NCBI RefSeq assembly: GCF_001854805.1
Contig: NZ_MBLO01000231.1
Coordinates: forward strand, 1 to 39,403
Source of the DNA: Pseudofrankia coriaricola
GTDB taxonomy: Bacteria > Actinomycetota > Actinomycetes > Frankiales > Frankiaceae
Direction of reading: 5' to 3'
Length of the DNA stretch: 39,403 nucleotides
Position numbers and translations under genes: made by a program. Below, piece by piece: positions 13,237 through 29,483 of the stretch; the first letter of the stretch is position 1; every line of letters starts with the position of its first letter. The notes under the pieces were generated by a model that saw nothing but the letters and a program-made list of their open reading frames with translations, made no database searches and was not told the origin of the DNA.

Positions 13237-13995
13237 TTACTCGACGAGGACGACCTCCAGCGTGCGGGGGCCGTGGACACCCTCGACGCGGTGGAGCTCG
13301 ATGTCGCTGGTGGCGCTCGGCCCGCTGATCCAGGTCAGCGGGCGGGTCGCGCGGCCGGCGGCGCGCAGGCGCGCGAGCGCGTCCGGCACACCGGCGACCA
13401 CCTGGTCGGCGCGCACGACCACCAGGTGGTAGTCCGGGACCAGGGACAGCGCGCGGCGGCCCTGCCCGGGCCCGCCGTCGAGCACGATCGTCCCGGTCTC
13501 GGCGATCGCCAGCGCGCAACCGGTCAGCACCCCGTCGAGCACATCCAGCTCGGCGGCCGTGAGCGGCGGCTCGTCGTCGACCGCCTCGATCCCGCGCGCC
13601 GCGGCGAGCCAGCCGGCCGGCAGACCCGGTGGGCGGACCAGGCGCCGCGCGCCGCGCTGGGTGAGCGCATCCGCGACGGCGGCGGCTATATCTCCGTCGT
13701 CGTTCCCGTCGTTCCCGTCGTTCCCGTCGCTCGCGTCATTCGTCGGGCCGGCGGGTGCGGCCGGTCCAGTTGGGACCCGGCGGACGAGCGCGTGGTAGTC
13801 GACGAGCCGGCCGGCCAGCAGCTCCAGTAACGCCTCCCGTGGCGCGTCCGCCGCAAGGCTCGGGGAACCGTCGCCGGCGGTGCGGTAGTCCCGGGAGGCG
13901 GGCGGTGCGGCCGGCCGGTCGGCGAGCGCGGCGCGCACCCGGGCCAGGACCTCTGCCCGCGCGTCATCAGACGGCGATGGGTCTGTCCGACTCAT
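13237..13995 (-). CDS. lutC: LutC-type lactate utilization protein (LUD domain)
   Basis: A 252-residue LUD-domain protein, the third component of the LutABC L-lactate oxidase system that converts L-lactate to pyruvate. Diagnostic segments are ALAIAETGTIVLDGGPGQGR, LSLVPDYHLVVV and WISGPSATSDIELHRVEGVHGP. The N-terminal half contains the interdomain repeat DGNDGNDGND, encoded by a 9-bp tandem repeat near 13700-13730 that may vary in copy number. The ATG overlaps the lutB stop by one base (TGATG), implying translational coupling. It is the last gene of the lut/rha cluster. Confidence 0.93.
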   Translation of the reverse strand: MSRTDPSPSDDARAEVLARVRAALADRPAAPPASRDYRTAGDGSPSLAADAPREALLELLAGRLVDYHALVRRVPTGPAAPAGPTNDASDGNDGNDGNDDGDIAAAVADALTQRGARRLVRPPGLPAGWLAAARGIEAVDDEPPLTAAELDVLDGVLTGCALAIAETGTIVLDGGPGQGRRALSLVPDYHLVVVRADQVVAGVPDALARLRAAGRATRPLTWISGPSATSDIELHRVEGVHGPRTLEVVLVE

Positions 13996-15704
13996 CACGG
14001 CGTCCTCTCGTCCGGCTCGTCCGGCGCGTCTCGGCCGCCCGGGGCGTCTTGGCCGATCCGCGCATCCTGGAGGTCCCGCGCGCCCGGTGCGTCCGGGTCG
14101 TCCAGTGGGTTCGACGCGTTCGGGCCGTCCAGCGGGTCTGGCGCGTTCAGGCTGTCCGGCGCGTCCGGGCCGTCGGGGCCGGACCGCTGGCGCGACCAGC
14201 GGTCGCGGAAGGTCTCGGCCGGGGGGAGCGGCAGGTCGCGGCTGGCGGTCCAGGCGGCCAGCGGTGGTGGCAGCCGCCCGATCGCGCCGCGGCGGCGCCC
14301 GAGCAGCCGGCCGAGGCGGGCGGCGCGCAGGGCGCGCGCCCAGCGGTCCGGTTTCGCCATCGTCCAGGCGGCCGCGGCCATCACAGCCCGTTCGGGCTTG
14401 GGCGGGTGGCCGGCGCCGCGCCCGGCGTCCACCACCTTGGCCCGCAGGTGGACCAGCATGGACGGGATGTCGATCGCGACGGGGCAGGCGTCCAGGCAGG
14501 CCCCGCACAGCGTCGACGCGTACGGCAGCGACGGGTTGTCGGCGACGCCGGCGAGCTGCGGGGACAGCACCGCGCCGATCGGGCCGGGGTAGACCGACCC
14601 GTAGGCGTGACCTCCGGTCCGCTCGTAGACGGGGCAGACGTTCAGGCAGGCCGCGCACCGGATGCAGCGCAACGCCGCCCGCCCGGCCGGGTCCGCGAGC
14701 GTCGCCGTGCGGCCGTTGTCGAGCAGCACCAGGTGGAACGCGCGGGGGCCGTCGCCGGGTGCCACACCTGTCCACATCGACGTGTACGGGTTCATCCGCT
14801 CACCGGTCGCCGAGCGGGGCAGCAGCTGGAGGAAGACCTCGAGGTCGCGCCAGGTCGGGACGATCTTCTCCAGGCCCATCACGGTGATGAGCGTGTCGGG
14901 CAGCGTCAGGCACATCCGGCCGTTGCCCTCGGACTCGACGACGGCGAGCGTGCCGGTCTCGGCGACGGCGAAGTTCGCCCCGCTGATCGCGACCCGGGCC
15001 GACAGGAAGCGCTGCCGCAGGTGTCGGCGGGCGGCCTCGGCGAGCGCTCGGGGCTCGTCGGTCAGCCCGGGTGGCGCGGGGACGCCGCCGGACGCGCCCA
15101 TCTCCCGGGCGAAGATGTCTCGGATCTCGGCACGGTTGCGGTGGATCGCCGGCACGACGATGTGGCTTGGCCGGTCGTGGCCGAGCTGGACGATGAGCTC
15201 GGCGAGGTCGGTCTCCCAGGCCGCGACGCCGGCGTCGGCGAGCGCCTCGTTCAGGCCGATCTCCTGGGTCGCCATCGACTTGACCTTGACGACCTCGGTG
15301 GCGCCCGCGGCGCGGACGAGGTCGACGACGATCCGGTTCGCCTCGTTCGCGTCGCGCGCCCAGTGGACGACGCCGCCGCGCGCGGTGACCTGCTCCTCCA
15401 GCTGGACCAGGTAGTCGCCCAGGTGCGCGAGCACGTCGTCCTTGATCGCGGCGCCGGCCGCGCGCAGCTGGTCCCAGTCGTCGAGCTCGGCGACGACGCG
15501 TGCCCGGCGCCCGCGGATCGTGCCTGTCGCCTTCCCGAGGTTACGGCGCAGCTGGGCGTCACCGAGCGCCCGGCGCGCGGCCACCGGGAACGGCTCGTCG
15601 CCGCGCAGCATCCCCACCCCGCGTGGCGCCGTCGGCGGCACCACCGCCGGCAGCCCCAGAAACGTCGCCGGGGAGGCCCCCGCCGGCCCGCTCGCCGCCG
15701 TCAC
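13995..15704 (-). CDS. lutB: LutB-type iron-sulfur lactate oxidase subunit
   Basis: A 569-residue protein with a LUD-like N-terminal domain followed by a ferredoxin-type domain with two Cys clusters. Cys 347, 350, 353 and 357 lie in CIRCAACLNVCP, and Cys 400, 403 and 407 in CGACLDACP. The conserved block VKVKSMATQEIGLNEAL and the LUD motif AISGANFAVAETGTLAVVES are present. It is the central electron-transfer subunit of LutABC. It is about 90 residues longer than typical LutB; the extra sequence is mainly a C-terminal Asp/Pro/Gly/Asn-rich tail (residues about 505-569). The GTG start follows GGGGGCGG. Its leader carries the 44-bp palindrome at 15725-15768. Confidence 0.94.
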   Translation of the reverse strand: MTAASGPAGASPATFLGLPAVVPPTAPRGVGMLRGDEPFPVAARRALGDAQLRRNLGKATGTIRGRRARVVAELDDWDQLRAAGAAIKDDVLAHLGDYLVQLEEQVTARGGVVHWARDANEANRIVVDLVRAAGATEVVKVKSMATQEIGLNEALADAGVAAWETDLAELIVQLGHDRPSHIVVPAIHRNRAEIRDIFAREMGASGGVPAPPGLTDEPRALAEAARRHLRQRFLSARVAISGANFAVAETGTLAVVESEGNGRMCLTLPDTLITVMGLEKIVPTWRDLEVFLQLLPRSATGERMNPYTSMWTGVAPGDGPRAFHLVLLDNGRTATLADPAGRAALRCIRCAACLNVCPVYERTGGHAYGSVYPGPIGAVLSPQLAGVADNPSLPYASTLCGACLDACPVAIDIPSMLVHLRAKVVDAGRGAGHPPKPERAVMAAAAWTMAKPDRWARALRAARLGRLLGRRRGAIGRLPPPLAAWTASRDLPLPPAETFRDRWSRQRSGPDGPDAPDSLNAPDPLDGPNASNPLDDPDAPGARDLQDARIGQDAPGGRDAPDEPDERTP

Positions 15705-15724
15705 GACCCGCCCCCGCCGACGAT

Positions 15725-15768
15725 CTGTGTCATCTCAGCGTGCCTATAGGCACGCTGAGATGACACAG
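15725..15768. repeat. 44-bp perfect palindrome, lutA-lutB gap
   Basis: A perfect inverted repeat with 22-nt arms (starting CTGTGTCATCTCAGCGTGCC) centred on CCTATAGG. It ends 21 nt upstream of the lutB GTG. In the lutAB transcript it would fold into a long hairpin next to the lutB ribosome-binding site. Confidence 0.85.
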
Positions 15769-15798
15769 TCGCTGCCCCCAGCGGCGAACTGTGGTGGA

Positions 15799-15822
15799 TG
15801 AGCCTGCCTATAGGCAGGCTCA
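15799..15822. repeat. second CCTATAGG palindrome, lutA-lutB gap
   Basis: A perfect 24-bp palindrome, TGAGCCTGCC-TATA-GGCAGGCTCA. It shares the CCTATAGG centre and the right flank (GATGACACA) with the palindrome 64 bp away. The left flank (GTGGTGGA) has diverged from the matching GTGTCATC. Confidence 0.8.
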
Positions 15823-16026
15823 GATGACACACTTCGACGTCCGAGCCTGGCCGGGGCGGACGGCCACCGGCCGAGAGGACTGGCGGGGCCGTGGCCGGCA
15901 TACCAGCTTTCCCCGTTCCGCCCGTCCACGGCCCGCTCAGCCGCACACGCTCCAGCACTGTGCGTGTCCGGCTCCGCTGGTCGTCGGCCTGGCGGCGCCC
16001 AGGCGCCTGACCGGCACCCGGCCGGG

Positions 16027-16812
16027 TCATCGGGCAGCCCGCGCGGTGGATGCCGCGGGCGGCGCGGCGACAGGGGACGCGGTGGTGGCCGTGGACGCGA
16101 GGATCTCCGCCAGGTGAACGGGTCGGACGCCGGTCCGCAGCCGGGACAGGCCTCCGCCGATGTGCATGAGGCAGGACGAGTCGCCGGCGGTGACGACCTC
16201 GGCGCCGGTGGACAGCACGTCGCGCATCTTGTCGGCGAGCATCGCCGTCGAGGTGTCCGCGTTCTTCAGCGCGAACGTGCCGCCGAAGCCGCAGCATGAC
16301 TCCGCGGCCGGCAGCTCCACCAGGTCGAGACCGGCGACGGCGCGCAGCAGCCGCGCCGGCGCGTCGCCGACCCGCAGCAGCCGCAGCGAGTGGCAGGTCG
16401 GGTGGTAGGTGACCCGGTGCGGGTAGTAGGCCCCGACATCGGTCACGCCGAGCACGCCGACCAAGAACTCGGACAGCTCGTAGGTGCGCGACGCGAGGTC
16501 GGCGGCGGCCGCGGCCAGCGCCTCGTCGCCGGCGGCGGCCGCCAGCGTCGCGTACTGGTGGCGCACCGAGCCGACGCAGGACCCGCTCGGCGCGACGACC
16601 GCCTCGTAGCCTTCGAACGCGCCGACGTGCCGGCGCACCAGCGGTAGCGCCTCGCGGGCGTAGCCGGTGTTGATGTGCATCTGGCCGCAGCAGGTCTGCG
16701 CCAGCGGCATGTCGACCTCGTGGCCGAGGCGCTCCAGTACCCGCACGGTCGCGTCGCCGACGTCCGGGAACATCCCGTCGACCAGGCAGGTGACGAACAG
16801 TCCGATCCGCAT
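16027..16812 (-). CDS. lutA: LutA-type (Fe-S)-binding protein (CCG domains)
   Basis: A 261-residue protein with two cysteine-rich CCG domains: TCCGQMHINTGYA near residue 40 and ESCCGFGGTFALKN near 180. Further conserved Cys are in PSGSCVGSVRHQY and YHPTCHSLR. This is the LutA component of the L-lactate oxidation complex (related to the GlpC and heterodisulfide reductase subunits). The ATG at 16812 lies 4 nt after the rhaB stop, and its GGAGCTGAG ribosome-binding region overlaps the end of rhaB, so translation is probably coupled to rhamnulokinase. An Ala/Thr-rich tail ends the protein. It is separated from lutB by 322 bp that hold paired palindromes. Confidence 0.94.
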   Translation of the reverse strand: MRIGLFVTCLVDGMFPDVGDATVRVLERLGHEVDMPLAQTCCGQMHINTGYAREALPLVRRHVGAFEGYEAVVAPSGSCVGSVRHQYATLAAAAGDEALAAAAADLASRTYELSEFLVGVLGVTDVGAYYPHRVTYHPTCHSLRLLRVGDAPARLLRAVAGLDLVELPAAESCCGFGGTFALKNADTSTAMLADKMRDVLSTGAEVVTAGDSSCLMHIGGGLSRLRTGVRPVHLAEILASTATTASPVAAPPAASTARAAR

Positions 16813-16816
16813 CCGC

Positions 16817-18331
16817 TCAGCTCCCTCCGGCGCCGCCGCGCCACGGCGGGCTCGGCATAAGGACCGTCCTGGTCCTCGTCGGTTCGTACCGCGTCGGCGG
16901 GGCCGTGGCACGGACCAGCGCGCGCAACGCCTCCAGACTGACGTCACCGCCGCCCGCCCGCCGCCCGCCGGGAGCGCCGAAGGCGCCGTGGGCGCGGGCC
17001 TGGACCAGCACGTTGCCGAGCGCGGTCGCCTCCGCCGGGCCGGCGAGCACCGGCAGGCCGAGCGCGTCCGCGGTCAGCTGGCACAGCAACTCGTTGCGCG
17101 ACCCGCCACCGACGAGGTGCACGACGTCGACGCGCCGGCCCGACAGGTGCTCGGCGGCGCGCACCGCCCGCGCGTAGGCGGCGGCGAGGCTGTCCAGGAC
17201 GCAGCGGACGATCTCGGCCGGGGTCCGCGGCTCGCGCTGCCCGCTGGCGCGGGCCGCGGCGACGACGCGGGCCGGCATGTCGCCGGGTGGCAGGAACTCG
17301 GGGGCGTCGGGGTCGACCACCGGGCCGCTGGGCGGCAGCGCCGCCGCCTGGCCCAGCAGGTCGGCCAGCGCCCACCGGTGCCCGGCGCGCCGCCACGTCC
17401 GCAGGCACTCCTGCAGGATCCACAGGCCCATCACGTTATGCAGGTAGCGGGTCCGGCCGTCGACGCCCGCCTCGTTGGTGAACTGGGCGGCGCGGCTGTC
17501 CTCCGTGAGCACCGGCGCGTCGAGCTCGACGCCGACGAGCGACCAGGTGCCGCATGAGATGTAGGCCCAGTTCTCGCCCTCGGCGGGCACGCCGACGACC
17601 GCCGACGCGGTGTCGTGCGAGCCGACCGCCGTGACCGGTGTCCCGGCGGCGAGCCCGGTCTCCTCGGCCGCCTCGGGGCGCAGCCCGCCGACGACCGTGC
17701 CCGGGGTGACCAGCGGCGGCAGGATCTCGGGGCGGATCCCCGCGAGCCGGGCGAGCGACGCCGACCAGGTCCGGTCGTGCGCGCCGAGCAGGCCGGTGGT
17801 CGACGCGTTCGTCACCTCCGCGGCCCGCTGCCCAGTCAGCCAGTAGGCCAGCAGGTCCGGGATGAGCAGCAGGGTCGCCGCGGCGCCCAGCGCGCCGCGG
17901 CCCGCCGCCGACTCGGCGGCGAGCTGGTAGAGCGTGGTGAACGGCAGGAACTGCAGCCCATTCGCCGGGTACAGCGCCGAGGGGGAGGTCGCGGCGTGCA
18001 CCGCGTCGAGAACCGCCTCGCCGGTCCTGGCGTCGCGGTAGTGGTGGGGGAGGCCGAGCAACCGGCCGGCGCCGTCGAGCAGGCCGTAGTCGACGGCCCA
18101 GGAATCGACGCCGATGCTGCGCGGCTGCCCGTGTGCCTCGCCGAGCGCCCGCAGCCCGGCGAGGATCTCGAGGTAGAGGTGCCCGACGTCCCAGTGCAGG
18201 CCGTCGGGCAGCCGCAGCGGCGTGTTCGGGAACCGGCGCACCTCGCTCGCCTCCAGCCGGCCAGGGCCGACATGCGCGGCGAGCACCCGCCCGCTGGAGG
18301 CCCCGAGGTCGACGGCGGCGAACAGACTCAT
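16817..18331 (-). CDS. rhaB: rhamnulokinase
   Basis: A 504-residue FGGY-family sugar kinase that phosphorylates L-rhamnulose at C1 using ATP. Identity rests on the N-terminal phosphate loop AAVDLGASSGRV, the substrate-region motifs LHWDVGHLYLEI and GVDSWAVDYGLLD, the ENWAYISCGTWSLVGVE block typical of rhamnulokinases, and the C-terminal ADP-binding VVHLVGGGSRNELLCQLTAD. Length matches the family. The ATG at 18331 was chosen because conserved sequence begins at once; the upstream in-frame sequence is repetitive Arg/Pro peptide. A 187-bp GC-rich, internally repetitive spacer separates it from the aldolase gene. The lutA start follows after 4 nt. Confidence 0.95.
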   Translation of the reverse strand: MSLFAAVDLGASSGRVLAAHVGPGRLEASEVRRFPNTPLRLPDGLHWDVGHLYLEILAGLRALGEAHGQPRSIGVDSWAVDYGLLDGAGRLLGLPHHYRDARTGEAVLDAVHAATSPSALYPANGLQFLPFTTLYQLAAESAAGRGALGAAATLLLIPDLLAYWLTGQRAAEVTNASTTGLLGAHDRTWSASLARLAGIRPEILPPLVTPGTVVGGLRPEAAEETGLAAGTPVTAVGSHDTASAVVGVPAEGENWAYISCGTWSLVGVELDAPVLTEDSRAAQFTNEAGVDGRTRYLHNVMGLWILQECLRTWRRAGHRWALADLLGQAAALPPSGPVVDPDAPEFLPPGDMPARVVAAARASGQREPRTPAEIVRCVLDSLAAAYARAVRAAEHLSGRRVDVVHLVGGGSRNELLCQLTADALGLPVLAGPAEATALGNVLVQARAHGAFGAPGGRRAGGGDVSLEALRALVRATAPPTRYEPTRTRTVLMPSPPWRGGAGGS

Positions 18332-18518
18332 CGCGCCCTCCCCGCCATCGGCGGCCCGGCCGTCTCCGGCCCGGCCGCCGGCGGCCCGGCTGGGCAGCCG
18401 GCGGCGGGAAAGGCCGCAGCTGAGCGGCCGGCGGCGGGAAGGGCCGCGGCGGGGAGGGCGGCGGTTGGACGGTCCGCGGCCAGGCGGTCGGCGGTTGGGT
18501 GATCGGTCGGTTGCGAGG

Positions 18519-20630
18519 TCATCGGAGGAAGGCTGCGGCGACACCGGCGTCGACGGGGATGTGCAGGCCGGTGGTGTGGGAGAGGTCGCCGGCGGTGAGG
18601 GCGAAGACGGCGTTCGCGACGTGCTCGGGCAGCACCTCCTGCTTGAGCAGGGTGCGCTGCGCGTAGAACGCGCCGAGCTCGGACTCCGGGACGCCGTACA
18701 CGGCGGCGCGCTTCGCGCCCCAGCCGCCGGCGAAGATGCCGGAGCCGCGGACGACGCCGTCGGGGTTGACGCCGTTGACGCGGATGCCGTGCTCGCCGAG
18801 TTCGGCGGCCAGCAGCCGCACCTGGTGGGCCTGGTCCGCCTTGGCCGCGCCGTAGGCGATGTTGTTCGGGCCGGCGAACACGCCGTTCTTGCTGGCGATG
18901 TAGACGATGTCGCCGCCGAGGCCCTGGTCGATCATGATCCGCGCCGCCTCCCGGGCGACCAGGAACGACCCGCGCGCCATGACGTCGTGTTGCAGGTCCC
19001 AGTCGGCGGTGGTCGTCTCCAGCAGCGGCTTGGAGATCGACAGCCCGGCGTTGTTGACGACCAGGTCGACGCCGCCGAACGCGAGCGCCGCGGCGGCGAG
19101 CCCGGCGGCGATCTGCTCCTCGTCGGTGACGTCCGCGGCCACCGCCACGGCCCGGTCGGCGGGCCGCGCCGCGGTGGCGCCGATCTCGGCGGCCACCTTC
19201 TCGGCCGCGGCGCCGTCCCGGTCGGCCACCGCGACGCACGCACCGTCGGCGGCCAGCCGCAGGGCGATCGCCCGGCCGATGCCGGAGCCGCCGCCGGTGA
19301 CGAACGCGACCCGGCCCGCGAGCGGGCGAGGCTTCGGCATCCGGGCGAGCTTGGCCTCCTCCAGTGCCCAGTACTCGATCCGGAACTTCTCCGACTCGTC
19401 GATCGGCGCGTACGTCGAGACGGCCTCCGCGCCGCGCATCACGTTGATCGCGTTGACGTAGAACTCACCGGCGACCCGAGCGGTCTGCTTGTCGGCGCCG
19501 AACGAGAACATGCCGACGCCGGGCACGAGCACGATCGCCGGGTCGGCGCCGCGCATCGGCGGGCTGTCGGGGGTGGCGTGCCGCTCGTAGTAGGCGCGGT
19601 AGTGGTCCCGGTAGGCGGTGTGCAGCGCGCGCAGCCGGTCGGCGACGGCGTCGAGGGGCGCGTCCGGGGGCAGGTCGAGCACCAGTGGGCGGACCTTCGT
19701 GCGCAGGAAGTGGTCCGGGCAGGAGGTGCCGAGGGCGGCGAGCCGCGGGTGTTCGGCGTGCGCGAGGAAGTCGAGCACGGCGTCGGCGTCGGTGAAGTGC
19801 CCGACCATCCGCCGGTCCGTGGACGCGAGCCCCCGGATGACCGGGGCTAGGGCGGCGGCCCTGGCTCGCCGCTCGGCCGGCGGGAGCGCGCCGAAGCCGG
19901 CGACCGGCGGGCCGAACGGCTCGGCCTTGCCGTGCTCGGCGAGGAACCGCGCCGCCGTCTGGATGATCTCGAGCGCGTTCGCCTCGCACTGGGCCGACGT
20001 GGCGCCCCAGGCGGTGATGCCGTGCCCGCCGAGGATCACGCCGATGGCGTTCGGGTGCTCGCGGGCGACGGCGGCGATGCCGAGGCCGAGCTGGAAGCCG
20101 GGACGCCGCCACGGCACCCACACGACGCGATCGCCGAAGCACTCGGCGGTCAGCCGCTCGCCGTCGGCCGCGGTGGCGAGCGCGATCCCGGCGTCCGGGT
20201 GCAGGTGGTCGACGTGGGCGGCCTCGACCAGGCCGTGCATGGCGGTGTCGATCGACGGGGCGGCGCCGCCGCGGCCGTGCAGGCAGTAGTCGAACGCGGC
20301 GACCATCTCGTCCTCGCGGTCCTCGCCCGGGTAGGCGTCGACGAGCGCGCGCAGCCGGTCCAGGCGCAGGACGGCGAGGCCGGCGGCCTTCAGGGTGCCG
20401 AGGTCGCCGCCGGAGCCCTTCACCCACAGCAGCTCGACCGGGCCGCCGGTGACCGGGTCGGTCTCGGTGCCCTTCGCCGACGTGTTGCCGCCGGCGTAGT
20501 TGGTGTTGCGGGGGTCCGCCCCCAGCCGGTTCGACCGGCCGAGCAGCTCGCCGACCACCGTCGTAGCGTCCGTCCCGGCGGCGCGGCCGGTCCCGCTTGC
20601 CGCGGCCGGTCGCGCTGGCTGCTCGTTCAT
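18519..20630 (-). CDS. rhaEW: bifunctional rhamnulose-1-phosphate aldolase / SDR dehydrogenase (RhaEW type)
   Basis: A 703-residue fusion. The class II aldolase domain (about residues 20-425) has zinc-ligand motifs HVDHLHPD (His about 142 and 144) and LGGHG (about 200-204), and would cleave L-rhamnulose 1-phosphate to dihydroxyacetone phosphate and L-lactaldehyde. The short-chain dehydrogenase domain (about 435-703) has the nucleotide motif TGGGSGIG (445-452), NNAG (527-530) and a Ser581-Tyr594-Lys598 catalytic set in YGAAK. In related fusions this domain oxidises lactaldehyde to L-lactate. The fusion channels the product toward the LutABC genes downstream. The ATG has a weak GGGAC site upstream. 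Confidence 0.94.
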   Translation of the reverse strand: MNEQPARPAAASGTGRAAGTDATTVVGELLGRSNRLGADPRNTNYAGGNTSAKGTETDPVTGGPVELLWVKGSGGDLGTLKAAGLAVLRLDRLRALVDAYPGEDREDEMVAAFDYCLHGRGGAAPSIDTAMHGLVEAAHVDHLHPDAGIALATAADGERLTAECFGDRVVWVPWRRPGFQLGLGIAAVAREHPNAIGVILGGHGITAWGATSAQCEANALEIIQTAARFLAEHGKAEPFGPPVAGFGALPPAERRARAAALAPVIRGLASTDRRMVGHFTDADAVLDFLAHAEHPRLAALGTSCPDHFLRTKVRPLVLDLPPDAPLDAVADRLRALHTAYRDHYRAYYERHATPDSPPMRGADPAIVLVPGVGMFSFGADKQTARVAGEFYVNAINVMRGAEAVSTYAPIDESEKFRIEYWALEEAKLARMPKPRPLAGRVAFVTGGGSGIGRAIALRLAADGACVAVADRDGAAAEKVAAEIGATAARPADRAVAVAADVTDEEQIAAGLAAAALAFGGVDLVVNNAGLSISKPLLETTTADWDLQHDVMARGSFLVAREAARIMIDQGLGGDIVYIASKNGVFAGPNNIAYGAAKADQAHQVRLLAAELGEHGIRVNGVNPDGVVRGSGIFAGGWGAKRAAVYGVPESELGAFYAQRTLLKQEVLPEHVANAVFALTAGDLSHTTGLHIPVDAGVAAAFLR

Positions 20631-20679
20631 CGTGTCCCAAGTCCCTTCGTGTTCTGGTGGGTCCGGTTCTGGCGGGCCT

Positions 20680-20715
20680 GGCTCCCGCGCTTCGGGCGGC
20701 TCCCGCGCTTCGGGC
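20680..20715. repeat. 18-bp tandem duplication
   Basis: GGCTCCCGCGCTTCGGGC occurs twice in direct tandem in the 88-bp gap between the isomerase-like gene and rhaEW. It probably arose by slippage. Confidence 0.7.
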
Positions 20716-20718
20716 GGG

Positions 20719-22266
20719 TCACGCGCCGCCGCCGCCGGGGCCGACGACGACGAGCTCGATGCCGAGCAGGTCGGCGACGGCGGCGAGGTCGGCGGCGCGG
20801 TGGCCCGTGCCGAGTGCCCAGTGGTGGTCGACGCCGGTGGCCGACCAGGCGTCGACCCACTCGCCGGGGTCGCGCCCGAAGTCGACCCGCGACGTCGTGT
20901 TGCCGATCCGCAGCAGCGGCCCGTCGACGACCGTGCCCTCGGCCGCGATGAACCGGAACGTGCCGTCGCGCAACTGGCCGAGACCGAAGGCGGTCACCGG
21001 GCCGTGGGCGACGTCGAACTCGACGGACACGCCCCAGCCGCGCTTGCCGTGGTAGGTCCCGAGCCCGCGCAGCAGCGGCCGGCGGGCGCTGATCGCCAGG
21101 TGCGCCGGGCCGTCGTGGCCCATCTCGACGACGCCGTCGCGGAAGTTCAGCGCCTGGATCTCGGTGAACGAGCCGCCGGCGCCGAGCCGGTCGAACATCA
21201 GCATGGCGAGGCTGGCGCGCAGCTCGTACTCGCCGCAGACGGGGATGCCGCGCGCGGTGAGCAGCGACGCGCCGAGGATCAGCCCGGCGCCGACCCGCTC
21301 GTGCTGCTCGCCGTCGAGGCCCCGGTGGTAGTAGGCGAGCGAGTCGAGCGCGAAGTCGTCGACCAGCCGGTCGAGCGCGACGGAGACCCGGGCGCCCCAG
21401 CGCAGGTCCCCGCCCGCGACCGACTCGTCGAGGGTGAACACCTCGCGGGCGAGCGCGAGCCGGGCGTCGGTCTCGGCGTCGGTCACCTTCTCGACGCGGA
21501 CTCGCAGGTCGTCGACCTCCAGGATCTCGACGTGCCCGCCGAGCTGGGCGGAGACGAGCGTCGGGTCGGTGGCGACGTCCATCATCCCGGGGTAGAGGTG
21601 GCCGAGCAGGCCGTGCCGGCCCGTGCGCAGCGCGGCCCGCACCCCGGCGGCGCGTACCCAGCGCTCGATTCGGCGCCACGCCCGCTCGTCGGCGAGGTAG
21701 CCCGAGACGGACCGGAACTCGACGCCGCAGCGGCGGAACGCGTTCGCCATCTCGGGCAGGGGGCAGGCGCCGCAGTAGGCCAGCCAGTCGCCGGTGTCGA
21801 AGGTGTCGTGGTCCATCGCCTCGGTCGGCTGCAGGTTGAGCAGGAGGACCGGGGCCCCGGCGCGCTGCGCGATCGGGACCAGCATGCTCGCGGTCATGTA
21901 GGTGGTGAGGAAGCCGACGATCAGATCGCAGTCCGCGGCCCGCAGCCGGTCGGCGGCGCGTGCGCCCTCCTGCGCGTCCGAGATGAAGCCGACGTCGACG
22001 ACCTCGCAGTCGAGCGCGGACAGCCGGGCCGAGACCTCGCGCGCCGACTGCTGGAGCCTGGGCAGCAGCGCCGGGAACTGCGGCCAGTAGGCGCCGAGCC
22101 CGCCGGCCACGAGGCCCACCCTGGTCGGGCGGGGCGTGACCCGCGCCAGCCCGGCGGCGAGGCCGGACACGCCTGGCGCCATCGGCGTGCCCGGCGCCGC
22201 CGGCGTCGGCGCGTTGGTCGTCGCCGCGCTCGTGGTCGTGGCCGTGGTTGTGGTCGTGGATGTCAT
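20719..22266 (-). CDS. L-fucose/L-arabinose isomerase-family protein
   Basis: A 515-residue protein of the L-fucose isomerase-related family (COG2407 type). Recognisable segments are RVGLVAGGLGAYWPQFPAL, DCDLIVGFLTTYMTASMLV, PVLLLNLQPTEAMD, IPVCGEYELRASLAMLMFDR and a C-terminal GVDHHWALGTGH. Such proteins interconvert aldoses and ketoses with a divalent metal. It sits between rhaI and rhaEW, so it may act on L-rhamnose, L-fucose or another deoxy- or pentose sugar as a second isomerase. The exact substrate is inference. The ATG at 22266 has AGGAGG nine bases upstream. The first 30 residues are Thr/Ala-rich low complexity. Confidence 0.85.
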   Translation of the reverse strand: MTSTTTTTATTTSAATTNAPTPAAPGTPMAPGVSGLAAGLARVTPRPTRVGLVAGGLGAYWPQFPALLPRLQQSAREVSARLSALDCEVVDVGFISDAQEGARAADRLRAADCDLIVGFLTTYMTASMLVPIAQRAGAPVLLLNLQPTEAMDHDTFDTGDWLAYCGACPLPEMANAFRRCGVEFRSVSGYLADERAWRRIERWVRAAGVRAALRTGRHGLLGHLYPGMMDVATDPTLVSAQLGGHVEILEVDDLRVRVEKVTDAETDARLALAREVFTLDESVAGGDLRWGARVSVALDRLVDDFALDSLAYYHRGLDGEQHERVGAGLILGASLLTARGIPVCGEYELRASLAMLMFDRLGAGGSFTEIQALNFRDGVVEMGHDGPAHLAISARRPLLRGLGTYHGKRGWGVSVEFDVAHGPVTAFGLGQLRDGTFRFIAAEGTVVDGPLLRIGNTTSRVDFGRDPGEWVDAWSATGVDHHWALGTGHRAADLAAVADLLGIELVVVGPGGGGA

Positions 22267-22362
22267 GGTCGGGTTCCTCCTTCCGGGGCGGCCGGGCGGG
22301 CGCCGGTCAGGGTGTCTGCTTCGCTCCGTCGCCCGCGCGCTCCGGCCCCGTACTCCGGGGTT

Positions 22363-22402
22363 CCTGCCGGATCGGCGGAGCTTGCGTAGCCGATCTGGCA
22401 GG
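22363..22402 (-). terminator. hairpin directly after rhaI
   Basis: 14-nt arms (CCTGCCGGATCGGC and its partner) pair with one mismatch around a 12-nt loop, starting 7 nt after the rhaI stop. It is probably a partial terminator or an RNA-processing/stability hairpin inside the operon, because the next gene follows in the same direction. Confidence 0.6.
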
Positions 22403-22408
22403 TCCGGC

Positions 22409-23578
22409 TCAGGCGCCCCAGCCTGCCTGCTGGCCGCCCGCGCGCTCGGCGACGATCCGCTCGGCGTAGCCGGAGCGGCGGTAGGCGGCGGTCGGGTCGG
22501 GGTCGAGGCCCGCGTCGGCGCGCAGCTCGGCGAGCAGCGGGCGGACGTCGGTGTTGTAGGCGTCCATGAGGATGGCGTTCGAGCCGAGGACGTCACCGGC
22601 GTGCTGGGCGGCGCGCAACGCGTCCCGGTCGACGAGCAGCGCCTTGGCGGTCGCTTCCTGGACGTTCATCACCGAGCGGAGCACCGCGGGGATCTTCGGC
22701 TCGATGTTGTGGCACTGGTCGAGCATGAACGCGATGCCGCCCGCGAGGGCGTCGGCGCGGACGATCTCGTACATGATGCGGAACAGCTGGAACGGATCTG
22801 CGGAGCCGACCATCAGGTCGTCGTCGGCGTAGAACCGCGAGTTGAAGTCGAACGCGCCGAGCCGGCCAGCGCGCAGCAGGAACGCGACGATGAACTCGAT
22901 GTTGGTACCCGGCGCGTGGTGGCCCGTGTCGATGCAGACGGCCGCCTTCGGCCCGAGCTCGACGCAGTGCGCGTAGGAGGTGCCCCAGTCGGGGACGTCG
23001 GTGGCGTAGAACGCGGGCTCGAAGAGTTTGTACTCGAGCAGCATCCGCTGCCCCTCGCCGAGCCGGTCGTAGACCTCGCGCAGCGCCTCTGCGAGCCGGT
23101 CCTGCCGGTCGCGCAGGTCGTCCTGGCCGGGGTAGTTCAGGCCGTCCGAGAACCACAGCTTCAGGTCGGTCGAGCCGGTGGCGTCCATGATGTCGACGCA
23201 TTCCAGCAGGTGCTTGACCGCCTTGTGGCGGATGCGCGGCTCCGGGTTGGTGACGCTGCCCAACATGAAGTCGGGGTCCTGGAAGACGTTGGAGTTGATG
23301 GCGCCGATCCGGACGCCCTGGTCGCGGGCGTAGGCCGCGAGCCCGTCGTAGTCGTCGACCCGGTCCCAGGGGATGTGCAGGGCGACGCTCGGCGCGGTCC
23401 CGGTGTACCGGTGTACCTGCGCGGCGTCCGAGATCTTCTCGAACGGGGTCCTGGGCACGCCCTGCTGCGGGAACACCTTGAACCTGGTCCCGGAGTTGCC
23501 ATAGGCCCATGACGGGGTCTCGATCTGCAGCGAACGCAGGCCTGTCTTCACAACATCCGTCGGGTTCGCCATCGTCAT
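22409..23578 (-). CDS. rhaI: L-rhamnose isomerase
   Basis: A 389-residue (beta/alpha)8 xylose-isomerase-like enzyme of the RhaI class, catalysing L-rhamnose to L-rhamnulose with a divalent metal. Landmarks are IETPSWAYGNSGTRFKVF at the N-terminus, HIPWDRVDDYDGLAAYA, LLEYKLFEPAFYATDV, VCIDTGHHAPGTNIEF and DFNSRFYADDDLMVGSADP; these hold the metal-binding Glu/Asp/His residues. Size fits the family. AAGGAG precedes the start; the ATG at 23578 is four bases from it and the ATG at 23569 is an alternative. It lies between the mutarotase gene and the second isomerase-like gene. Confidence 0.95.
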   Translation of the reverse strand: MTMANPTDVVKTGLRSLQIETPSWAYGNSGTRFKVFPQQGVPRTPFEKISDAAQVHRYTGTAPSVALHIPWDRVDDYDGLAAYARDQGVRIGAINSNVFQDPDFMLGSVTNPEPRIRHKAVKHLLECVDIMDATGSTDLKLWFSDGLNYPGQDDLRDRQDRLAEALREVYDRLGEGQRMLLEYKLFEPAFYATDVPDWGTSYAHCVELGPKAAVCIDTGHHAPGTNIEFIVAFLLRAGRLGAFDFNSRFYADDDLMVGSADPFQLFRIMYEIVRADALAGGIAFMLDQCHNIEPKIPAVLRSVMNVQEATAKALLVDRDALRAAQHAGDVLGSNAILMDAYNTDVRPLLAELRADAGLDPDPTAAYRRSGYAERIVAERAGGQQAGWGA

Positions 23579-23767
23579 CACGCTCCTTGGGTCCGGCGCC
23601 GTCGGGGCGCCGGGGGCGGCGTCGCGGACGTCGGTGGGTAGACGACTGGGACCGGGCCGAGCCGAGGCCAGCTGGGACCGGACCGCGGCAAGCCGCCGCG
23701 GGTCCGGCGGGCTCGGCGCCCGCCGGCCGGCCCGCTCGGGTCGCGCTGGCGCGGTCGGGTCGTCTCG

Positions 23768-23785
23768 TCTGTCCGGCCGGACAGA
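23768..23785 (-). terminator. hairpin directly after rhaM
   Basis: TCTGTCCGGCCGGACAGA, a perfect 18-bp palindrome 15 nt downstream of the rhaM stop. It may trim or protect the upstream transporter-rhaM mRNA segment. Confidence 0.45.
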
Positions 23786-23800
23786 AAGGATGGGGAGGGG

Positions 23801-24121
23801 TCAGTCCAGGTGGAAGACTTCGGTGAGCGGTTGCATGGCCTCGTCGGGGCCGCGGCCGTCGATGCCGGTGAAGAAATCGGTCATCTCCTTCTGCCAGCGT
23901 GTGTTCACCTCGGTCGCGGCCATCGCCGCCTGTGCGGCGGCCAGGTCCGGCGACTCGACGTACCCGATGAGCAGGCCGTCGTCGCGCAGGAAGAGCGAGT
24001 AGTTGTGCCACCCCGCGGCCCGCAGCGCGTCGAGCATCTCCGGCCAGACGGCGCGGTGGCGCTCGGCGTACTCGACCAGGCGGTCCGGCCGAACCCGCAG
24101 GGTGAAGCAGTACCGCCGCAC
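23801..24121 (-). CDS. rhaM: L-rhamnose mutarotase
   Basis: A 106-residue protein of the RhaM/RhaU family, which interconverts the alpha and beta anomers of L-rhamnose so that the isomerase receives its preferred form. The family signature is clear: RYCFTLRVRPDRLVEYAERH, then VWPEMLDALRAAGWHNYSLF (the last part holding active-site residues), GYVESPD and RWQKEM. Length is typical (about 104). The GTG start follows GGAGGGAG. It lies between the binding-protein gene and rhaI, with about 220 bp of non-coding, GC-repetitive sequence on each side. Confidence 0.95.
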   Translation of the reverse strand: MRRYCFTLRVRPDRLVEYAERHRAVWPEMLDALRAAGWHNYSLFLRDDGLLIGYVESPDLAAAQAAMAATEVNTRWQKEMTDFFTGIDGRGPDEAMQPLTEVFHLD

Positions 24122-24344
24122 GGCGATCTTCTCCCTCCGATGTCCCGTTCAGGCTGGTTCGCGCCCCGGTTACTCCGGTGGCGCCGGTTGCCGTGTCGCC
24201 CGGTCCCGCCCGTCGCGCCGGGTACGCCCGCCGCGACGGTCCCGGCCCTCGCGACGGACGCGCCCGACGCGACGGACACGCCGCCGCGAGGCCGGCCCGC
24301 CGGCCGCCCGGGCAGGGCGACCGGCGCGCCAGACGCGCTCAGAA

Positions 24345-25427
24345 TCAGAAGTCGAACTTGTCGATGTTGTCGGCGCTGAAGACCGTCGGCGGGCCGAGGA
24401 CGATCTCGCCGTCCTTGCCGATCGTGTACTTGCCGAGCTTGCCGGCGGTGAACGTCTCGCCCTCGGCGCCCGTGATCTGGCCGGAGGCCAGCGCGACGCC
24501 GGCGTAGGCCGCCAGGTAGCCGATGTCGGCCGGGTTCCACAGCGCGAACTGCTTGACGGTGCCGTCCTTGACGTACTCGCGCATCTGGTTCGGGGTGCCG
24601 AGGCCGGTGACGACGACCTTGCCCTTGTAACTGGAGCTGCTCACGTACCGGGCGGTCGCCGCGATGCCGACCGTGGTCGGTGAGACGATCGCCTTCAGGT
24701 TCGGGTACGACTGCAGCAGGCCCTGCGCCTGCTGGAACGACGTCTGGTCGTCGTCGTTGCCGTAGGCGATCTTCACCAGCTTCAGACCGCTGTACTCCGG
24801 CTTGGCCAGCTCGGTCTTCATGACGTCGATCCAGGCGTTCTGGTTCGTCGCGTTCGGGGTGGCCGACAGGATCGCGATGTCACCCTGGCCGCCGACCAGG
24901 TCGCTGGTCATCTTCACCAGGCCCTCGCCGATGCCCTGCGTGGTCGCCTGGTTGATGAACACGTCGCGGCAGTCCTTCGCCGCGTCCGAATCGAAGGCGA
25001 CGATCTTGATGCCGGCGGCGGACGCCTGCTTCAGCGACGGGCAGACGGCGTTCGGGTCGTTCGCCGCGATGCCGATGACGTCCTGCTGCTGCTGGATCAG
25101 CGTGTTGATGTAGCTGACCTGCGACGACGCGGACGCGTCGTTCGGCCCGACCAGCTTGTACTCGCCCTTGAGGTCGCCGAGCGCAGCCTTGCCGCCGCTG
25201 ACCTCGATGTCGCTGTAGGGGTTGTTGAGCTGCTTCGGCAGGAACGCCATCTTCACGCCGGTCTTCAGCGTCGCGTTCGGGTTGGCGCTCGCCGCGGCAC
25301 CGCCCGACGTGGCGCCGCTGGAGGTGGCGTCGTCCTTCGACGTGCCGCCGCAGGCCGCGAGGCCGACCGTCAGCGCGACTAACGCCGCGGCGGGTAGGAG
25401 GAGTTTTCTGGACCGGCGTGGCTGCAT
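24345..25427 (-). CDS. rhaS: sugar ABC transporter substrate-binding lipoprotein (rhamnose)
   Basis: A 360-residue periplasmic-binding-like lipoprotein (type 1 fold, CUT2 family). The signal peptide has the lipobox LAAC with lipidated Cys at about residue 26, then a Ser/Gly/Ala linker. Core segments are AFLPKQLNNPYSDIEVSGGK, QQDVIGIAANDPNAV, VAFDSDAAKDCRDVFINQA and AIVSPTTVGIAATARYV, characteristic of rhamnose-type RhaS proteins. It would sit on the outer face of the membrane and deliver rhamnose to the permeases. The ATG at 25427 was chosen because the signal peptide begins there. A 266-bp gap with an inverted repeat lies upstream, so it may have an extra promoter. Confidence 0.92.
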   Translation of the reverse strand: MQPRRSRKLLLPAAALVALTVGLAACGGTSKDDATSSGATSGGAAASANPNATLKTGVKMAFLPKQLNNPYSDIEVSGGKAALGDLKGEYKLVGPNDASASSQVSYINTLIQQQQDVIGIAANDPNAVCPSLKQASAAGIKIVAFDSDAAKDCRDVFINQATTQGIGEGLVKMTSDLVGGQGDIAILSATPNATNQNAWIDVMKTELAKPEYSGLKLVKIAYGNDDDQTSFQQAQGLLQSYPNLKAIVSPTTVGIAATARYVSSSSYKGKVVVTGLGTPNQMREYVKDGTVKQFALWNPADIGYLAAYAGVALASGQITGAEGETFTAGKLGKYTIGKDGEIVLGPPTVFSADNIDKFDF

Positions 25428-25564
25428 GGCTGGGGGAGTCCCTTCGGAGTGGCCGCTGGCCGCCAGACGGTCGGCGTGACCGTGACCGCTGGCGGGCGGT
25501 AAGGCGGTAAGGCGGTGGAGCGGTGGAGGCGGATGGGTCGCCACGGGTTCGCCGACCTCCCTTC

Positions 25565-25603
25565 TGATCACATCCAGTAGCAAACGACTACCTAGTGTGA
25601 TCA
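25565..25603 (-). promoter_or_regulatory. inverted repeat upstream of rhaS (candidate internal promoter/operator)
   Basis: TGATCACA and TGTGATCA lie 23 nt apart, with an inner GTAG/CTAC pair. The AT-rich stretch is unusual for the region and is about 140 bp before the rhaS start, in the longest gap of the transporter genes. It could be an operator or promoter that boosts binding-protein expression. Confidence 0.45.
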
Positions 25604-25693
25604 ACGATGGGCGGGTCGAACGGAGCCTGTGGGCGGTGCCCGGTGGACGTGGGGTGGGCGGTCGGTGGCGGGGTGGTCGGCGTGACCCGGCGG

Positions 25694-26848
25694 TCAGGAA
25701 CCGGGCAAGGGTGGAGAGAGGGGCGTTGGCCTGCGGTGTCGGGCGCGGGAGACCGCGGCCCTGGTCCGGCGGATGAGGTTCGGGACGAGTACCGACACGA
25801 CGAGCAGCGCGCCGGTGACGACGTTCAGGGACTCGTTCGAGACGTCCGACAGGCGCATGGCGTTCTGCAGTGCGGCCAGCAGCACGACCCCGCCGAGCAC
25901 CCCGGGCAGGGTGCCGCGGCCGCCGAAGATCGAGACCCCGCCGAGCAGGACGGCGGCGACGACCGCGAGCTCCAGACCGGAGCCGTTGTCGGCGCGGGCA
26001 CTGGAGTAGCGCAGCGTCCACAGCACCCCGGCGAGCCCCGCGACCGCGCCGGTCACGACGTAGAGCCAGAACTTCAGCCGGCCGACGCGGATCCCGGCGA
26101 ACCGGGCCGCCTGCTCGCTGGCCCCGGCGGCGAACGCCCAGCGGCCCACCGGCGTCGCGTGCAGCACGACGGCGAACACCACCGCCAGCGCGGCCAGCGG
26201 GATCAGGACGTTCGGCACCGCGGAGCCGCCGACGGTGCCTGTGACCCAGTTCGTGTACTGGGCTGGGAAGTCGGCGACGGCGGTGTCGCCGAGGACGACG
26301 AGCGCCAGCCCGCGGAAGAGCGCCAGCGTGCCGATCGTCACGGCCAGTGACGGCAGCCGAAACACCGTCACGAACAGGCCGTTCACCGCGCCCAGGACCG
26401 CCCCGAGCACGATGCACAGCGGGATGATCGTTTCGATGGTCATCCCGTGGTTCCACAGGCTGCCCATCACCGCGCTGGACAGGCCCAGCGTGCTGGCCAC
26501 CGACAGGTCGATCTCGCCGGTCACGATCACGAACGTCATCGGCAGCGCGATCAGCGCGATCGGCAGCAGGTCGAGGACCAGGAACGTGAAGTTGCGCGAT
26601 GTCCCGAAGTTCTCGACCGACGCGGAGGCGACGACGATGACGAGCACCGCGAGCACCACGACGCCAAGGTCCCAGCTCGCCAGCCGGCCCAGCTGTGCTC
26701 CCGGGCCTTGCCGCGCTCCCCGGCCCGCGGCCGGCGGCCCGGCGCGGCCGCCACCCGCGGGCGGCGCGGCGTCGGCGAGGCTGTCGGCGGTAGCAGCGGC
26801 AGCGGTGGCGGTGGCGGTGGCGGCCGGCCGGTCGCTGTCAGCGGACAT
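25694..26848 (-). CDS. rhaQ: sugar ABC transporter permease (CUT2)
   Basis: A 384-residue inner-membrane permease of the BPD_transp_2 (ribose/rhamnose) family. About 8-10 hydrophobic segments begin at VVVLAVLVIVVASA. Typical motifs are FVIVTGEIDLSVAS, SLAVTIGTLALFRGLAL and VAAVLLGGVSIFGGRGTLPG. The first 55 residues are Ala/Gly/Pro-rich and cytoplasmic. Its start overlaps the 3' end of the preceding permease by 11 bp, so the two are probably translated together as the heterodimeric channel. The symbol rhaQ versus rhaP is arbitrary. Confidence 0.92.
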   Translation of the reverse strand: MSADSDRPAATATATAAAATADSLADAAPPAGGGRAGPPAAGRGARQGPGAQLGRLASWDLGVVVLAVLVIVVASASVENFGTSRNFTFLVLDLLPIALIALPMTFVIVTGEIDLSVASTLGLSSAVMGSLWNHGMTIETIIPLCIVLGAVLGAVNGLFVTVFRLPSLAVTIGTLALFRGLALVVLGDTAVADFPAQYTNWVTGTVGGSAVPNVLIPLAALAVVFAVVLHATPVGRWAFAAGASEQAARFAGIRVGRLKFWLYVVTGAVAGLAGVLWTLRYSSARADNGSGLELAVVAAVLLGGVSIFGGRGTLPGVLGGVVLLAALQNAMRLSDVSNESLNVVTGALLVVSVLVPNLIRRTRAAVSRARHRRPTPLSPPLPGS

Positions 26849-27884
26849 GGGAGCCCCTCTTCTTCAGCGCCGCCGCGACCCGCGCGGCGATCAGCCGGTC
26901 GATCCCGATCGCGAGCAGGATCAGCGCGCCGACGATGGCCTGCTGCCAGAACTGGTCGACGCCGAGCACGGGCAGCGCGCTGCCGATCGTCGTGAGCAGC
27001 AGCGCCCCGAGCGCCGCGCCCCACACCGAGCCGCTGCCGCCGAAGATCGCGACACCGCCGACGACGACCGCCGCGACGACGTTCAGCTCGTAGCCGTTGC
27101 CCGCGGCGGCGTCGACCGTGCCGAACCGGGCGGCGAACAGCACGCCGGCCAGGCCCGCGAGGGTGCCGCTGGCGAGGAAGGCGGCCAGCGTGCGCCGGCC
27201 GACCGGGATGCCGGCGAGCCGCGCCCCGTCGGGGCTCGACCCCAGCGCGTAGAGCTGGCGCCCGGCCGGGTAGGACCGCAGCACGACGCCGGCGACGACG
27301 AGCACGGCGACGGCGATGAGCACCAGGTACGGCACGCCGAGCACCGTCGCGGTGCCGAACTTCAGGAAGCCGTCCGGCAGCTCGTCGGCGTTGATCTGGC
27401 TGCCGCCCGCCCACAGGTAGGCGACGCCCCGGTAGGCGTACAGCGTCCCGAGCGTCACCACCAGCGCCGGCACGTCGCCGAACCGGACGAGCAGGCCGTT
27501 GACCAGGCCGCAGCCCGCGCCGACAGCGATCCCGACCAGGACCGCCACGATGATCGGCATGCCGGGATGGTTCATCAGCAGCGTCCCGGCCGCGAACGCG
27601 GACAGGCCGAGCACCGAGCCGACCGACAGGTCGATGTTGCGGGTGATGACGACGATCGTCTGGCCGACCGCGAGCACGCCCAGGATGGCGGCGCCGAGCA
27701 GGATGTCGCGGATCGACTGCGAGTGCACGAAGCTGGGATGGCCGATGGCGGTCACGAGGACCAGCAGCGCCAGCGCCAGCACGATGCTGATCTCGCGCGC
27801 CCGCAGCACCCGCTCCAGTACGGACGTCCGCGCGGGCATCGCGCGCGCCGGCATCGTCCGGACGGAGTCCTCAACGGTGGTCAC
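26838..27884 (-). CDS. rhaP: sugar ABC transporter permease (CUT2)
   Basis: A 348-residue inner-membrane permease paralogous to the next gene. Hydrophobic segments start with ISIVLALALLVLVTAIG. Family motifs are TIVVITRNIDLSVGSVLGLS, PALVVTLGTLYAYRGVAYL and VGGVAIFGGSGSVWGAALG. The GTG at 27884 overlaps the ATPase stop by four bases (GTGA), implying translational coupling. It forms the membrane channel with the second permease, powered by the ATPase encoded upstream. The choice between rhaP and rhaQ is by order only. Confidence 0.92.
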   Translation of the reverse strand: MTTVEDSVRTMPARAMPARTSVLERVLRAREISIVLALALLVLVTAIGHPSFVHSQSIRDILLGAAILGVLAVGQTIVVITRNIDLSVGSVLGLSAFAAGTLLMNHPGMPIIVAVLVGIAVGAGCGLVNGLLVRFGDVPALVVTLGTLYAYRGVAYLWAGGSQINADELPDGFLKFGTATVLGVPYLVLIAVAVLVVAGVVLRSYPAGRQLYALGSSPDGARLAGIPVGRRTLAAFLASGTLAGLAGVLFAARFGTVDAAAGNGYELNVVAAVVVGGVAIFGGSGSVWGAALGALLLTTIGSALPVLGVDQFWQQAIVGALILLAIGIDRLIAARVAAALKKRGSHVR

Positions 27885-29458
27885 AGTGCGACCTCCACGC
27901 CCTTCTCCGCCGGCTGCTCGCCCGCGGCCGAGGTCGCCCCGGTCGTCGCGGCTTCCCGCTTCCGCTGGCCGACAGCGGCGAACATCACGGACTCCTCGGT
28001 GGCGTCCGCGCGGTCGAGCTCGGCGACCAGCCGGCCCTCCCGCATCACCAGCACCCGGTCGGCCAGGCCCAGCACCTCTGGAAGCTCGGACGAGACCATC
28101 AGGACGGCGACGCCGTCCTCGGCGAGACCGGAGATCAGCCGATGCACCTCGGCCTTCGTCCCGACGTCGATGCCGCGGGTCGGCTCGTCCACCATCAGGA
28201 CCCGGGGCAGAGTCGCGAGCCACTTGGCGAGTATGACCTTCTGCTGGTTGCCGCCCGACAGGGTCGACACCGCGTCGGCCAGCCGGCCGTACTTCGTCTG
28301 CAGCCGGGCCGTCCATTCGGCGGCCGCGCGCCGCTCGGCGCCGCCGAAGAGCAGCCCGAGGCGGGCGAGCGCCCCGGAGCGCGGCAGGGTGACGTTGCGG
28401 GCGATCGAGGCGTCCATGACCAGGCCCTGCAGCCGCCGGTCCTCCGGCACCAGCGCGAGCCCCGCGGCCATCGCCGCGCGCGGCGACCCCGCGCGCAGCT
28501 GGCGGCCGTGGACGCGAACGGTGCCCGCGTCGCGGGGGTCGACGCCGAAGACCGCCTGCGCGACCTCGGAACGCCCGGAACCGACCAGGCCGGCGAGTGC
28601 GACGATCTCGCCCGCGCGCACCTGGAAGGAGACATCCCGGAAGACGCCGTCGCGGCGCAGGCCGTCGACCTCCAGCACGACGTCGCCCGGGGTCGTCGAC
28701 CGCCGCGGGTAGAGCGTGGACAGGTCGCGGCCGACCATCCTGCGGACCAGGTCGTCGACGGTCAAGCCGGCGAGCGGGTCCGTCGAGACGTGCCGGCCGT
28801 CGCGCATGACGGTTACCCGCTGGCACAGCGCGGTGATCTCCTCGAACCGGTGCGAGATGAACAGCACGGCGGCGCCCCGGTCGCGCAGCGAGCGAGCGAC
28901 GGTGAACAGGCGCTCGACCTCGACGGTCGACAGCGCGGCCGTCGGCTCGTCCATCACGAGCACGCGGGCGTCCGCGGACAGCGCCTTGGCGATCTCGACG
29001 AGCTGCTGATCGGCGATCGACAGGCCTCGCGCCGGCCGGGCCGGGTCGATGTCCACGCCGAGCCGCTCGAACAGGGCCGTCGCGTCCCGGACCATGCGTG
29101 CCCGGTCGATCGCGTGGAACCGGCCGCGGGGTGGCTTCGCCATCGCGATGTTCTCGGCGACGGACAGGTCGGGGAAGAGCGTGGGCTCCTGGTAGATCAC
29201 CGCGATACCGGCGGCCCTGGCATCGGCGGGGGAGCTCAGCGCGAGCGGGGCGCCGTCCATCTCGATCGTGCCGGTGTCGGGGCGGTGTACCCCGGCGAGC
29301 ATCTTGACGATCGTGGACTTGCCGGCGCCGTTCTCGCCGACCAGGGCGTGCGCCTCGCCTGCGTAGAGAGGGAACGAGACGTCGCGCACCGCGGCGACTG
29401 CCCCGAAGGACTTGGAGACGTCGCGCACCGCTAACAACGGCGCCTGCTCTGCGGGCAT
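27881..29458 (-). CDS. rhaT: sugar ABC transporter ATP-binding protein (CUT2, two NBDs)
   Basis: A 525-residue cytoplasmic ATPase with two fused nucleotide-binding domains, as in ribose/rhamnose importers. NBD1 has Walker A GENGAGKST, the signature-like LSIADQQLVEIAKAL and Walker B VLVMDEPTAAL. NBD2 has a degenerate Walker A (GLVGSGRSE), a canonical signature LSGGNQQKVILAKWL and Walker B VLMVDEPTRGID. The degenerate second site is usual in CUT2 ATPases. It is the first gene of the cluster, with ATG after GAAGGGGTGAG and a LacI-type operator just upstream. It is divergent from the regulator. Confidence 0.94.
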   Translation of the reverse strand: MPAEQAPLLAVRDVSKSFGAVAAVRDVSFPLYAGEAHALVGENGAGKSTIVKMLAGVHRPDTGTIEMDGAPLALSSPADARAAGIAVIYQEPTLFPDLSVAENIAMAKPPRGRFHAIDRARMVRDATALFERLGVDIDPARPARGLSIADQQLVEIAKALSADARVLVMDEPTAALSTVEVERLFTVARSLRDRGAAVLFISHRFEEITALCQRVTVMRDGRHVSTDPLAGLTVDDLVRRMVGRDLSTLYPRRSTTPGDVVLEVDGLRRDGVFRDVSFQVRAGEIVALAGLVGSGRSEVAQAVFGVDPRDAGTVRVHGRQLRAGSPRAAMAAGLALVPEDRRLQGLVMDASIARNVTLPRSGALARLGLLFGGAERRAAAEWTARLQTKYGRLADAVSTLSGGNQQKVILAKWLATLPRVLMVDEPTRGIDVGTKAEVHRLISGLAEDGVAVLMVSSELPEVLGLADRVLVMREGRLVAELDRADATEESVMFAAVGQRKREAATTGATSAAGEQPAEKGVEVAL

Positions 29459-29471
29459 CTCACCCCTTCAA

Positions 29472-29483
29472 TGAAAGGTTTCA
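29472..29483. promoter_or_regulatory. LacI-family operator at the rha promoter
   Basis: The plus strand reads TGAAA-GG-TTTCA within TCAATGAAAGGTTTCAATG. LacI/PurR-type regulators favour palindromes such as TTGAAACGTTTCAA. It lies 14-25 bp upstream of the rhaT start, so a bound repressor would block the operon promoter. The divergent gene encodes a LacI-family protein, the likely ligand. Confidence 0.65.

Follow-up and report, generated by a model that had tools for sequence, protein, structure and literature searches.

The lutABC genes of Bacillus subtilis form a stand-alone lactate operon. The locus described here carries the same three gene families in the same order, lutA-lutB-lutC, but joined to genes for rhamnose breakdown. 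It was found in Pseudofrankia coriaricola, a soil actinobacterium, whose genome comprises 11.2 Mb in 280 contigs. Lactate oxidation genes have been connected with rhamnose before: according to the accessible text of Rodionova et al. 2013 (PMC3870299), the RhaR regulons of certain RhaEW-bearing Actinomycetales and Rhodobacterales include lldD and lldEFG, those RhaEW pathways are probably extended to pyruvate, and the RhaEW of Chloroflexus yields lactate and DHAP in vitro. The lldEFG genes are the same as lutABC, whose products form a general system for lactate utilisation (accessible text of PMC6955870).

Compared with the Actinomycetales RhaR regulon as it appears in the accessible text of PMC3870299, the locus shares a LacI-type RhaR, an ABC transporter, the RhaEW fusion, lactate oxidation genes and pyruvate as the inferred end product. 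Its additional features are an isomerase of predicted AraA fold next to RhaI and, between lutA and lutB, a palindromic element; no description of the isomerase was found in that text. The locus is real and can be regarded as an ordinary rhamnose operon, extended to lactate oxidation in a manner already published. The word 'Frankia' is absent from the accessible main text of PMC3870299, and the present locus adds a Frankia-like family to the cases in which rhamnose breakdown probably extends to pyruvate. The loose ends of interest are the substrate of the isomerase and the family of palindromic elements.

Gene content and order

The window, i.e., the whole stretch of DNA analysed, is 39,403 bases long, and the gene block lies on its minus strand between 29458 and 13237, with all genes in one direction. 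The features, listed in the order of transcription after the divergent regulator and the operator, were as follows.

29947–30954, plus strand: LacI-family regulator, candidate RhaR (Pfam LacI HTH and Peripla_BP_3), divergent from the operon; the start at 29947 is approximate, being set from the profile match
29472–29483, no strand assigned: LacI-type operator TGAAACCTTTCA (minus-strand reading), 13 nt before the ATPase gene, the first of the block
27881–29458, minus strand: CUT2 sugar ABC transporter ATPase (Pfam ABC_tran, two stretches)
26838–27854, minus strand: CUT2 permease 1 (Pfam BPD_transp_2)
25694–26848, minus strand: CUT2 permease 2 (Pfam BPD_transp_2)
24345–25427, minus strand: rhamnose-binding protein of the RhaS type (TIGR02637, 399 bits, cut-off 342)
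23801–24121, minus strand: rhaM, L-rhamnose mutarotase (Pfam rhaM, 109 bits, cut-off 23)
22409–23581, minus strand: rhaI, L-rhamnose isomerase (TIGR02635, 632 bits, cut-off 531)
20719–22266, minus strand: sugar isomerase of predicted AraA fold (weak AraA and SftI profile matches)
18519–20630, minus strand: rhaEW, rhamnulose-1-P aldolase / lactaldehyde dehydrogenase fusion (TIGR02632, 1069 bits, cut-off 568)
16817–18331, minus strand: rhaB, rhamnulokinase (best match TIGR02627, 418 bits, below the cut-off of 528; FGGY_N and FGGY_C)
16027–16812, minus strand: lutA (Pfam CCG, two stretches)
15718–15838, no strand assigned: dispersed palindromic element of 121 nt (CM match, 117 bits, E 1.1e-27; the copy is also among the 13 rows of the model)
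13995–15704, minus strand: lutB (TIGR00273, 458 bits, cut-off 445; LUD and 4Fe-4S domains)
13237–13995, minus strand: lutC (LUD domain at 88 bits, match confined to the profile's second half)

RhaS, RhaI, RhaEW and LutB scored above their curated cut-offs. For RhaB, rhamnulokinase models were the top matches with 418 and 375 bits, under the respective cut-offs of 528 and 639, and Pfam placed the protein among the FGGY kinases. RhaM passed the Pfam cut-off and reached 67 bits with TIGR02625, below the NCBIfam cut-off of 100. The locus resembles the RhaEW type of pathway in that both the aldolase/short-chain dehydrogenase fusion (TIGR02632) and rhaI are present, and the LutABC/LldEFG type of lactate system in that a CCG-domain LutA, a LutB with LUD and 4Fe-4S domains and a LUD-domain LutC occur together; models specific to LutA or LutC gave no match in the family searches. 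No Rfam match was obtained within the window at the gathering threshold.

The identities of the genes by family and their order were thus observed directly, and the gene content, order, single strand and span given in the earlier note were borne out by the coordinates and the family searches. The same holds for its two tight junctions: the stop codon of rhaB ends at 16817, lutA begins at 16812 and 4 nt lie between them, and base 13995 belongs both to the TGA that ends lutB and to the ATG of lutC, an overlap of one base. At six further junctions of the block, apart from lutA-lutB, the gaps measured 88 to 245 nt. In the gap that separates permease 2 from the binding protein (25449–25693), an imperfect inverted repeat (TGATCACA...TGTGATCA) was seen to fold as a hairpin.

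Proposed pathway

Judging from the genes present, the CUT2 transporter would bring in L-rhamnose, which RhaM and RhaI would convert to L-rhamnulose and RhaB would phosphorylate. RhaEW would then split the phosphorylated rhamnulose into DHAP and L-lactaldehyde and oxidise the latter to L-lactate, from which LutABC would form pyruvate. The divergent LacI-family RhaR would repress these genes through the single operator. We consider it very likely (probability about 0.86) that the block is an actinobacterial L-rhamnose operon of this kind, repressed at one operator by RhaR and leading from rhamnose to DHAP and pyruvate; the likelihoods given to other readings below are not exclusive of this pathway. 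Under the preferred reading, the LacI protein would bind the operator, the whole block would be co-transcribed, the 322-nt lutA-lutB gap included, rhamnose would induce it, and flux would follow the route above.

A conserved putative LacI-type operator

The motif TGAAANNTTTCA had a single exact match in the 39,403-base window, at 29472–29483, where base composition leads one to expect 0.0006, and the window contained no site with one mismatch. A promoter-like pair, TTGACA-17-TAAGTT, picked out by eye, lies just upstream. Within the window, no operator with at most one mismatch was found before lutA or lutB or in the gap between them. Among the window ORFs scanned, the LacI-type gene was the sole regulator recognised next to the block, and its adjacency to a palindromic operator agrees with the Actinomycetales RhaR (LacI) regulon in the two features compared.

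The same site recurred in relatives, for which we used the best-scoring 80 RhaEW loci among the matches listed (genome contigs), a sample rich in Streptomyces. In 70 of the 80 loci, a rha, transporter or lacI gene had a site with at most one mismatch in the 400 nt preceding it; exact operators lay at such positions in 58 loci, and 10 loci had none. Total counts in the 80 loci were 126 sites with at most one mismatch and 61 exact sites, versus 2 and 0, respectively, in one mononucleotide shuffle. These shuffle counts, together with the 0.0006 sites expected and one found in the window, led us to reject chance occurrence. The operator-like site and its recurrence in relatives were observed directly; L002 and many other loci listed have it before the ATPase gene. 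Among the 12 family loci besides the window, eight had the exact operator, one (L122) begins inside the operon, and three (L128–L130) had neither operator nor lut genes. G008 and G023 each had an additional exact LacI-type site before rhaEW, within the operon (L123:9656 and L124:9224, respectively).

Only in L072, of the 80 loci, did the 400 nt preceding lutA contain a site; there lutABC is divergent from the transporter and the operator lies between lutA and the transporter. With operators near rha, transporter or lacI genes and close to lutA in this locus only, lutABC usually appears, by position, to depend on a rha promoter or to be carried along behind lacI.

lut genes in the rhamnose loci of relatives

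Gene neighbourhoods in the 80 loci were counted using tblastn at 1e-8 and flanks of up to 10 kb. rhaB was followed directly by lutA on the same strand in 39 loci (34 of them from Streptomyces), and nine further loci carried lutA and lutB elsewhere, giving 48 of 80 in total. The two genes lay on the strand opposite rhaEW in eight loci, seven times directly after lacI and once (L072) divergent from the transporter, and lutABC followed rhaEW in one (L071). Of the 48 loci with both genes, 45 also had lutC, which was not seen in L018, L027 and L038. No lut genes occurred in the flanks of 24 loci; seven more were without lut genes but incomplete, and one was partial at a contig end. The distance between rhaB and lutA in the 39 loci was 44–231 nt between tblastn ends, so the 4-nt spacing of the window is not established as general.

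A search of the genus, family and class recovered full-length RhaEW in 13 of 41 genomes, the source genome included, and the closest named relative among the matches listed was Pseudofrankia asymbiotica, whose RhaEW was 96% identical. The 13 family loci, window included, comprised seven with rhaB followed by lutA, three with lutABC behind lacI and three with no lut genes in the stretch examined. LutB was matched at E <= 1e-20 in 14 of 25 genomes, once in each; G014, one of the three family loci without lut genes, had no LutB match at this threshold in the 25-genome search, which excluded G017 and G020. The entire 11.2-Mb genome of P. coriaricola likewise had a single LutB match at E <= 1e-20, the copy in this block. 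The clustering of rha and lut genes is not due to chance, given that the sole LutB match at this threshold sits here and that a like neighbourhood is found again in several actinobacterial families.

The earlier note had proposed comparing the rhaB-lutA adjacency across the family, where separation in all relatives would have counted against it; the adjacency is kept in the seven loci above. Its further claim, that the lut coupling stands out since rhamnose clusters are usually described as ending at lactate or lactaldehyde, is not supported, because such coupling was already reported in 2013 (accessible text of PMC3870299) and because 48 of the 80 best RhaEW loci had both lutA and lutB. As to one regulated unit running from rhamnose to DHAP and pyruvate, which the note had also put forward, the gene order, the single conserved LacI-type operator and the recurrence in relatives lend it support, and the unit itself is something that we infer from sequence. 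Against the preferred reading may be set the 24 of 80 loci and three of 13 family loci without lut genes, the 10 of 80 without an operator, and the scores of RhaB and RhaM below their NCBIfam cut-offs. Overall, the published view that RhaEW-bearing actinobacteria can carry rhamnose breakdown on to pyruvate gains support from this independent comparison.

An isomerase of predicted AraA fold

The gene adjoining rhaI (20719–22266) encodes a protein of 515 residues that scored 42 bits with the AraA model NF002795 (cut-off 622) and 41 bits with the SftI (sulfoquinovose isomerase) model NF048012 (cut-off 700). Membership in either family was rejected, as both scores were far under the cut-offs. An AlphaFold model built from 12 sequences (the best among five, with a mean pLDDT of 78 versus 63–70 for the remaining four) gave a TM of about 0.78 to AraA, at about 20% identity, and of about 0.68 to FucI. 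The predicted fold is thus that of the L-arabinose isomerase / L-fucose isomerase superfamily, and the sequence is remote from AraA itself. The metal ligands of AraA are two Glu and two His. The isomerase has E369, H384 and H481/H482 at positions aligned to Glu/His in AraA chains, and these residues are invariant in the 12 sequences; the first metal-ligand Glu is offset by 2 in the AraA alignment, and E346 is invariant in the 12 sequences.

A reading that we hold possible, leaning against it, is that a second sugar, 6-deoxy or related, is broken down by the operon in addition to rhamnose and enters through this isomerase. The predicted AraA fold is in its favour, as is the distribution of the gene: it occurred in 14 of the 80 best RhaEW loci, all 14 with rhaI, and the window copy was 74–96% identical to those of the 11 loci aligned with it (L017, L030 and L058 were left out of the alignment). 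The remaining 66 loci, by contrast, gave no match to the isomerase in the stretch examined, and within the family it was present in G001, G003, G004, G005, G006 and the window but was not seen in the stretches examined of G002, G007, G008, G014, G017, G020 and G023. A tentative proposal, which we regard as rather unlikely, is that actinobacterial rhamnose operons have in this isomerase a second entry point not yet described; if it is true, L-rhamnose and another 6-deoxy sugar would both be funnelled via RhaB, RhaEW and LutABC to DHAP and pyruvate.

The lutA-lutB gap and the palindromic element

Between lutA and lutB lies a gap of 322 nt (15705–16026), absent from the earlier note, which holds the 121-nt palindromic element. 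A covariance model (CM) derived from 13 copies, among them that of the window, matched 53 times in this genome, 46 in G005, 92 in G006, twice in G004 and 20 times, more weakly, in G014 (both strands counted); the other 20 of the 25 genomes searched had no CM match. These counts are lower bounds because 144 candidates were scored per genome, and the number of sites is nearer half that of the matches because the palindrome often matches both strands. Compensatory changes exceeded those in shuffles (covariation score 0.276 versus 0.173, reached by 0 of 500), for copies that are related and a structure taken from the same alignment.

Since a gap of this length holds a strong palindrome, lutBC could be expressed separately. 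The block would then consist of two units, rha-lutA being transcribed from the RhaR promoter and lutBC either from a second promoter or from a transcript processed or attenuated at the element. The element occupies the same place between lutA and lutB in three species (the window, G005 and G006). Between tblastn ends, the lutA-lutB gap measured 407 nt in L002 (the same place as G005), against 0–104 nt in the other 38 of the 39 loci with rhaB followed by lutA, and 103 nt in G004. We nevertheless judge two units improbable, as the element family is dispersed, so that its position here may be a functionless insertion, the gap holds no operator-like site, and one would expect LutA, LutB and LutC to act jointly.

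Other lactate genes

A further point against the preferred reading, a rhamnose operon extended to pyruvate, concerns other lactate enzymes. FMN_dh, the LldD superfamily, had five near-full-length and three partial matches elsewhere in the genome; therefore, LutABC may not be the sole route for lactate. The lactate permease family PF02652 had no match in the genome, which is weak evidence because the same search found the family in only four of 14 control genomes. That LutABC serves external lactate, its place beside rhaB being historical, would suit a general lactate utilisation system (accessible text of PMC6955870) and the single genomic LutB, but is highly unlikely given the repeated association with rha loci in several arrangements, the LacI-type gene as the only regulator identified beside the block and, weakly, the permease result. 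The translation of LutB (13995–15704) has a low-complexity, Asp/Pro-rich C-terminal tail, and a small single-cluster ferredoxin (Fer4_15) is encoded past lutC on the same strand, at 12537–12908.
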